Source of the DNA: Bacillota bacterium
GTDB taxonomy: Bacteria > Bacillota > Dethiobacteria > DTU022 > UBA8154
NCBI GenBank assembly: GCA_012837615.1
Contig: DUQX01000015.1
Location: 1 to 35,365 of the forward strand
Reading direction: 5' to 3'
Length of the DNA stretch: 35,365 bases
Position numbers and translations under genes: made by a program. The notes under the pieces were generated by a model. It saw nothing but the letters and a program-made list of their open reading frames with translations. It searched no databases and was not told where the DNA came from. The number at the start of each line of letters is the position of its first letter. The first letter of the stretch is position 1. Shown here piece by piece: positions 1 through 32,659 of this stretch.

Positions 1-867
1 CATAACTCGGAAGCTCTACGTCAAAAATATATTTCGGCCAAGGCTTCTGAAGAAAAACAAGAGGAGATTAATAATACAAATCACGCGCAAAAAACCCAGG
101 TAAAAGCCATTTTTTATGATGCCCTTAAAGAACGAAGGGTTGTCCTCCTCGAACATGAGGGTGCGCAAATTCTTGAAGCTTTTGGGATCAACTGTGCACC
201 CACCTATTTAGCCCGAAGCCCTGAGGATGCTGCCCAAATTGCCTCCCAAATAGGCTTTCCTGTAGTTCTCAAAATTGCCTCTCCGAATATTTTGCACAAA
301 ACCGACATCGGTGGAGTGTTGGTAGGAGTGGATAATACACATGGAGTAATACAAGGTTTTAAAGATATTATGCAAAGAGCAAGACACTTCCTACCGGATG
401 CGCCCCTTTATGGAGTAGAAGTACAAAAAATGATGCCTTCGGGAACAGAAACAATTATCGGTTCATCTTATGATGTTCAGTTCGGGCCCTTACTGGTGTT
501 TGGGCTGGGAGGTATTTATGTAAACCTTTTTGAAGATGTTTCTTTAAGGCTGGCAAAAAATTTAACTGAAAATGATGTGGATGAAATGATCATGGAAACT
601 AAAGCATACCGCCTTTTAAAAGGCTACAGAGGCAAAAACCCCCTCGATCTTCAGTCTTTAAAGAATGCCATTCTCAGGTTGGGACGCCTTGTATCAGATT
701 TTCCGGAAATCAAAGAAATGGACATTAACCCCCTGCTGGTTTATGAAAAAGGTGTCTGTGCAGTTGATGTAAAAATTACACTCTCACACGATATCGGTAT
801 TCAGCATCAACCGACGGAGGAAAAAAAGGAACTTGTATTCAACCAGCTTGCTGAAAGGAGATCATAA
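1..867 (+). CDS. ADP-forming acyl-CoA synthetase, C-terminal (ATP-grasp) part, 5' truncated
   Basis: The reading frame is open from the first base, so the gene begins outside the window. The visible 288 residues start with a charged linker and continue into the ATP-grasp beta domain: the HKTDIGGV segment near residue 99, a glycine-rich FGLGGIYVNLF stretch, and the closing MDINPLLV motif typical of acetate/acyl-CoA ligases (ADP-forming). In this family (Acd/COG1042) the enzyme converts acyl-CoA, ADP and phosphate to the free acid, CoA and ATP in the cytoplasm. A fused CoA-binding alpha domain probably lies upstream; this is inferred, because the linker-then-ATP-grasp order matches fused enzymes. 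The substrate cannot be read from the sequence. The stop overlaps the ribosome site of the next gene, so the two are probably co-transcribed. Confidence 0.85.
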   Translation, partial: HNSEALRQKYISAKASEEKQEEINNTNHAQKTQVKAIFYDALKERRVVLLEHEGAQILEAFGINCAPTYLARSPEDAAQIASQIGFPVVLKIASPNILHKTDIGGVLVGVDNTHGVIQGFKDIMQRARHFLPDAPLYGVEVQKMMPSGTETIIGSSYDVQFGPLLVFGLGGIYVNLFEDVSLRLAKNLTENDVDEMIMETKAYRLLKGYRGKNPLDLQSLKNAILRLGRLVSDFPEIKEMDINPLLVYEKGVCAVDVKITLSHDIGIQHQPTEEKKELVFNQLAERRS

Positions 868-32429: not shown

Positions 32430-32479
32430 AGAACCTTCCTCCCTGCAACAAGCGTATAACCCAACGCCCATGTACTTAT

Positions 32480-32506
32480 AAAAAAATAGCAGTACTGGGC
32501 TGCTAT
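32480..32506 (-). terminator. Riboswitch-controlled terminator ahead of the DUF342 gene
   Basis: ATAGCAG (32506-32500, minus) pairs exactly with CTGCTAT (32492-32486) over a 7-base loop, followed by seven Ts. It lies between the c-di-GMP aptamer and the gene start, so it can act as the expression platform. Confidence 0.85.
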
Positions 32507-32519
32507 AAATCAAATTAAT

Positions 32520-32603
32520 GTTTTTGCAGCCTGGCAATCTTTGTTTGTTTTAGACCCATGGCTTTGCGTCCCTGTCTTTCGGCAGGTTTGCCCTGTTAAA
32601 AAC
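32520..32603 (-). promoter_or_regulatory. c-di-GMP-I (GEMM-I) riboswitch
   Basis: The minus strand reads the GEMM-I order: GTTTTT (P1, pairs with AAAAAC at the 3' end), AGGGCAAACC, a CCGAAAG tetraloop hairpin, GGGACGCAAAGCC, GGGTCTAAA, then GCCAGGCTGC. These are the conserved blocks of the class I c-di-GMP aptamer. The GGCTGC at the 3' side (32531-32526) could instead pair with GCAGCC of the downstream terminator (32503-32498), so ligand-free RNA should antiterminate and bound RNA should terminate; this OFF-switch reading is an inference. Confidence 0.92.
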
Positions 32604-32630
32604 ATTTTCCCCTATGTTTTATTTGATATG

Positions 32631-32659
32631 ATTTTACCAATTCGTTAATTATTTGTCAA
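32631..32659 (-). promoter_or_regulatory. Promoter of the riboswitch-DUF342 unit
   Basis: TTGACA (32659-32654) and TAAAAT (32636-32631) are separated by 17 bases on the minus strand, 28 bases upstream of the aptamer. It is a near-consensus sigma-A promoter. Confidence 0.8.

Follow-up and report, generated by a model that had tools for sequence, protein, structure and literature searches.

Two described riboswitches provide the reference points for the locus considered here. Cd1 of Clostridioides difficile, located before the flgB operon, is an experimentally proven OFF switch, and the pilM riboswitch is an ON switch (PMC9262584). Our locus lies on the minus strand of a 35,365-nt stretch of contig DUQX01000015.1 (from the Bacillota assembly GCA_012837615.1), and we refer to the whole of this stretch as the window. 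In it, a c-di-GMP-I aptamer and an intrinsic terminator precede a fapA/DUF342 gene. Based on modeled folds, we consider it probable (roughly 0.86) that this leader is a transcriptional OFF switch for fapA.

The resemblance to Cd1 is close. Both have a c-di-GMP-I aptamer, a flagellar-type target and OFF control (predicted from the fold in the case of the window), both have terminator strands that lie outside the aptamer, and in both the antiterminator is formed by the aptamer 3′ strand and the terminator 5′ arm. Unlike Cd1, the window locus has a lone fapA as its target rather than the flgB operon, and its P3 has no apical stem. Also, a 9-bp A-U P1 is predicted in the window, whereas none was seen by NMR in Cd1 (PMC9262584). 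The arrangement is the opposite of that of the pilM ON switch (PMC9262584). The switch itself is ordinary: it belongs to a known class of c-di-GMP riboswitch, with a slightly trimmed sensor.

Locus organization

The features of the leader are collected in Table 1. A sequence-only reading had placed a c-di-GMP-I riboswitch with a terminator at 32480-32603, and these coordinates are right. It had also described a closing P1, which folding recovers as 9 bp between the two strands listed, and a DUF342 gene with its own consensus promoter. The promoter is as described, and the gene product matches Pfam FapA_N (3e-34, 118.3 bits; cut-off 27) and FapA (5.5e-26, 92.2 bits; cut-off 31). The terminator stem lies 57 nt ahead of the TTG start.

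Table 1. Features of the fapA leader in the window, in the order of transcription
Feature	Position	Strand	Basis
Sigma-A-type promoter, TTGACA-17 nt-TAAAAT, extended -10 TG	32631..32659	(-)	11/12 matches
P1 5′ strand, AAUGUUUUU	32598..32606	(-)	Sequence and folding
c-di-GMP class I aptamer	32521..32601	(-)	Rfam RF03167 73.9 bits, RF01051 71 bits
P2 hairpin, CCUGCC-GAAA-GACAGG, GAAA tetraloop	32571..32586	(-)	Rfam and folding
P3 apical loop, apical stem absent	32541..32553 (approximate bounds)	(-)	Alignment, pattern search
GGCUGC, 3′ strand of P3 base plus pocket C92; also predicted antiterminator 5′ half	32526..32531	(-)	Folding
P1 3′ strand, AAAAACAUU	32517..32525	(-)	Folding
Intrinsic terminator, AUAGCAG-CCCAGUA-CUGCUAU, then six T (32485-32480)	32480..32506	(-)	Terminator scan, folding
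GCAGCC, predicted antiterminator 3′ half, within terminator 5′ arm and loop	32498..32503	(-)	Folding
Shine-Dalgarno-like GGGAGG	32438..32443	(-)	Sequence; conserved in L009
fapA/DUF342 gene, TTG start, 607 aa	30606..32429	(-)	Pfam FapA_N, FapA; orthologs

It should be noted that the space between the end of the upstream RACo-like gene and the riboswitch promoter (window 32680-32660) is too short for a terminator. RACo transcripts may therefore enter the riboswitch, and its terminator could end them.

Aptamer identity and ligand

The GEMM-I covariance model, which the sequence-only reading had proposed as a check, identifies the aptamer well above threshold (RF01051, gathering cut-off 35). The best match, however, is to RF03167 (c-di-GMP-I-GGC; E 6.7e-16, gathering score 59), by 2.9 bits. 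The ligand-contact bases, which we take to be G20 (32591), A47 (32564) and C92 (32526) in Vc2 numbering, are all present, and their columns are invariant across an alignment of 20 relatives. At the position that is G in c-di-GMP binders and A in c-AMP-GMP binders (PMC9481103), the window aptamer has G (32591), and the A of the c-AMP-GMP (GEMM-Ib) class is absent. By this rule we rejected c-GAMP as the ligand, and the pocket bases point to c-di-GMP.

The preference for RF03167 (73.9 vs. 71 bits) raises the alternative that the aptamer senses a different nucleotide signal. In 2017, Weinberg et al. reportedly set c-di-GMP-I-GGC apart from c-di-GMP-I because its specificity might be altered, and this origin counts in favor of the alternative. 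However, at the junction base that distinguishes the two models (GCGAA in RF03167, GCAAA in RF01051) the window has the canonical A, and the preference seems to arise from the short P3 loop. Moreover, two other c-di-GMP-I copies in the same genome score higher with RF01051 (by 10 and 9 bits), and these canonical copies likewise exceed the RF03167 gathering score. Given a canonical junction base, and a model that ordinary copies also pass, we rejected the RF03167 label as a sign of an altered ligand and consider a different signal very unlikely. Overall, the aptamer resembles RF03167 in its short P3 loop and best score and departs from it in lacking the consensus G of GCGAA, with GUCUAA kept. 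With RF01051 it shares the conserved sequence blocks, the GAAA tetraloop and the pocket bases; it differs in the absence of the P3 apical stem and the reduction of one side of the tetraloop receptor.

The trimmed P3

The P3 loop reads CUAAAACAAACAAAGAUU, and the apical stem is absent. The GAAA tetraloop on P2 and the CUAA side of its receptor in P3 are present, and the Y-A-N-G-A side of the receptor is cut down to A-A-A-G-A. The earlier statement that all GEMM-I blocks are present thus holds for the other conserved blocks; the missing P3 apical stem had gone unnoticed. In a pattern search of 248 related genomes, with short tips judged by inspection, 108 genomes have the longer P3 form and 12 have short P3 tips, nearly all of which retain a small stem and the YAUGA receptor side. 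Among well over 100 pattern matches, the P3 stem is absent only in the window and in one other genome (G176).

With the apical stem missing, docking of the tetraloop may be weakened and affinity may drop. Reduced affinity is a possibility in the window because a tetraloop change in Cd1 abolished binding (PMC9262584). In the extreme, the leader would still bind c-di-GMP, with such low affinity that it is weak and nearly constitutive, either responding only at very high signal or being an RNA in decay. The rarity of the P3 stem loss fits this, as does a copy broken by insertions in a congener (see below). On the other hand, promoter, terminator and antiterminator are all intact, as is every other conserved block of the aptamer, which still scores 71-74 bits, so we regard a nearly constitutive leader as rather unlikely. 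An aptamer with P3 trimmed in this way offers a natural experiment on the extent of tertiary docking that c-di-GMP-I switches require.

Terminator, antiterminator, and direction of control

The sequence-only reading had noted a perfect 7-bp terminator with a T-run and a six-base alternative pairing, GGCTGC/GCAGCC, and both stand. One such stem with its six T was found, compared with 0.4 ± 0.6 in shuffled sequences. GGCUGC is fully complementary to GCAGCC (duplex -13.8 kcal/mol); when the terminator arm and loop were shuffled, an equal or better duplex arose in 0.4% of trials (p about 0.004). With random stems of the same make-up, a switch (defined as antiterminator probability >0.9 with terminator <0.05) arose in 2.4% of 500 trials.

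In stepwise ligand-free folding, P1 and P3 have probabilities of 0.7-0.8 at transcript lengths of 110-122 nt. Once GCAGCC emerges (126 nt), the antiterminator dominates, with a probability of 0.96-1.0 from 126 to 154 nt and the terminator at 0.03 or less. When the downstream part was folded alone, with the aptamer set aside, the terminator formed with a probability of 0.98. Forcing the aptamer helices gave a fold that holds both aptamer and terminator, at -31.9 kcal/mol vs. -32.9 kcal/mol for the antiterminator fold. By minimum energy the forced fold is 1.0 kcal/mol less stable, and by ensemble energy about 2; ligand binding could plausibly overturn a gap of this size. Aptamer and terminator are thus compatible in the models, and the antiterminator excludes both.

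These folds suggest the following sequence of events. RNA polymerase would be expected to start near 32623 (-) and to transcribe the aptamer first. If c-di-GMP is absent, the emerging terminator 5′ arm would capture the GGCUGC strand of the aptamer, including the ligand-pairing C92, and the resulting antiterminator would let transcription continue into fapA. Once c-di-GMP is bound, this strand would stay in the aptamer, the 7-bp terminator would form, and transcription would end about 50 nt ahead of fapA. Because aptamer and terminator would coexist when ligand is present, high c-di-GMP is proposed to lower FapA. Generally, c-di-GMP represses motility functions, and a lowering of FapA at high c-di-GMP would fit this pattern; we infer the role of FapA from its family name. 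Termination may be incomplete, because the terminator is short and A-T rich (about -7 kcal/mol).

The opposite direction (an ON switch), or control of translation instead of termination, was also considered. In its favor, folds of the full-length leader have the Shine-Dalgarno sequence mostly paired in every state and show a less accessible start codon when the aptamer is formed. However, an ON switch requires that aptamer and terminator be mutually exclusive; here the two coexist, and it is the antiterminator that excludes both. The Shine-Dalgarno pairing is independent of the aptamer state (0.19 vs. 0.19), which disfavors a translational mechanism. We find either form of this alternative highly improbable. 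The OFF direction, which had been predicted from the sequence, is probably right, since Rfam models, folding, randomized controls and relatives agree.

Past the terminator (window 32500-32465), GCCCAGUAC can form a hairpin with GUACAUGGGC. From 158 nt onward in the full-length fold, this read-through structure replaces the antiterminator, and the aptamer re-forms.

Other riboswitches in the same genome

In the genome that contains the window (2.1 Mb in 151 contigs, 89% complete), seven GGDEF domains score above cut-off; there are two flagellin genes and one fapA gene, the latter at the window locus. The GGDEF genes and flagellins indicate that both the ligand and the target pathway exist. One of the two further c-di-GMP-I aptamers (L007 5099-5199 and 7809-7912 (-)) precedes a T2SSE/RcpC (Tad-type) gene, and the other precedes a transglutaminase gene, after which comes an EAL-HDOD gene. 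Transglutaminase genes preceded by c-di-GMP-I riboswitches have been described in Bacillota (PMC12452182). Both copies are followed by a strong G-C-rich terminator, and the alternative-pairing test found no clear antiterminator of the window type at either.

Orthologs within the family

The leader of a same-family fapA ortholog (L013, genome G009; 48-49% identity) carries a terminator together with an aptamer of canonical form (78 bits), and GACTGC/GCAGTC is its candidate for the alternative pairing. Its upstream gene is of poly(A)-polymerase type, vs. RACo in the window, and MoeA lies downstream in both. Because the aptamer is kept even though the upstream gene differs, the riboswitch appears to go with fapA.

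The situation is different in the congener G001 (L009), where fapA is 71% identical and the RACo-fapA-MoeA order is the same as in the window. Its leader (1290-1410) conserves the promoter and Shine-Dalgarno sequence, but the aptamer is broken by two insertions of about 15 and 11 nt. It scores 15.8 bits with Rfam and has no match, at E up to 1, with a search model that we built from 20 aptamers (R1). The terminator is weak, and GGCCGC and GCGGCU are still able to pair. Apparently, this is a pseudo-riboswitch in decay; as the promoter and gene are kept, the control is dispensable. Searches with Rfam and the 20-aptamer model found no aptamer in three further family members (L010-L012).

Recurrence before fapA homologs

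Using the same model (R1), we also found aptamers directly before fapA homologs at five other loci (L113, L124, L108, L210 and L211); the pairing of aptamer and fapA recurs in other Bacillota. Overall, 10 of 60 regions upstream of other fapA homologs (each ≤3.5 kb) hold a c-di-GMP-I match, and all 12 matches in these regions are on the same strand as the homolog; by our own estimate, from the few aptamers per genome, roughly 0.4 would be expected by chance. For the seven leaders with an aptamer directly before fapA, the alternative pairing has a combined p of 3e-5 with hand-chosen segments, and it is not significant singly in L108 (p 0.56), L113 (p 0.18) or L013 (p 0.14).

Three families have a single HD-GYP-type (HD_5) gene between the aptamer and fapA (L163, L162 and L170). 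This order suggests a c-di-GMP feedback operon, and a link to fapA presupposes co-transcription. At L185, the intervening genes are HATPase_c_2, STAS, SpoIIE-phosphatase and STAS (all four by Pfam), and the arrangement at L181 resembles it (Pfam on the HATPase gene only). These two loci may represent a partner-switching module under riboswitch control, and a link to fapA again presupposes co-transcription.

In a literature search outside the main GEMM papers we found no paper that names FapA/DUF342 as a c-di-GMP riboswitch target. A broader proposal would be that FapA/DUF342 is a recurrent and largely undescribed target across Bacillota families, either directly or within an HD-GYP-type operon, and that the rare P3-stemless aptamer of the window is shifted in affinity or specificity. 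Taken as a whole, we hold this proposal to be doubtful. FapA/DUF342 proteins are widespread and poorly understood, and repeated control by c-di-GMP riboswitches would tie them to the motile/sessile decision and offer a simple test of function.

At L170, where the full aptamer lies about 1.1 kb upstream, there is also a 46-nt half c-di-GMP-I aptamer (296-341 (-), the same as L025 3496-3541 (-)). It comprises P2 and the junction, has no P3, and is found shortly before the Shine-Dalgarno sequence of the fapA homolog.
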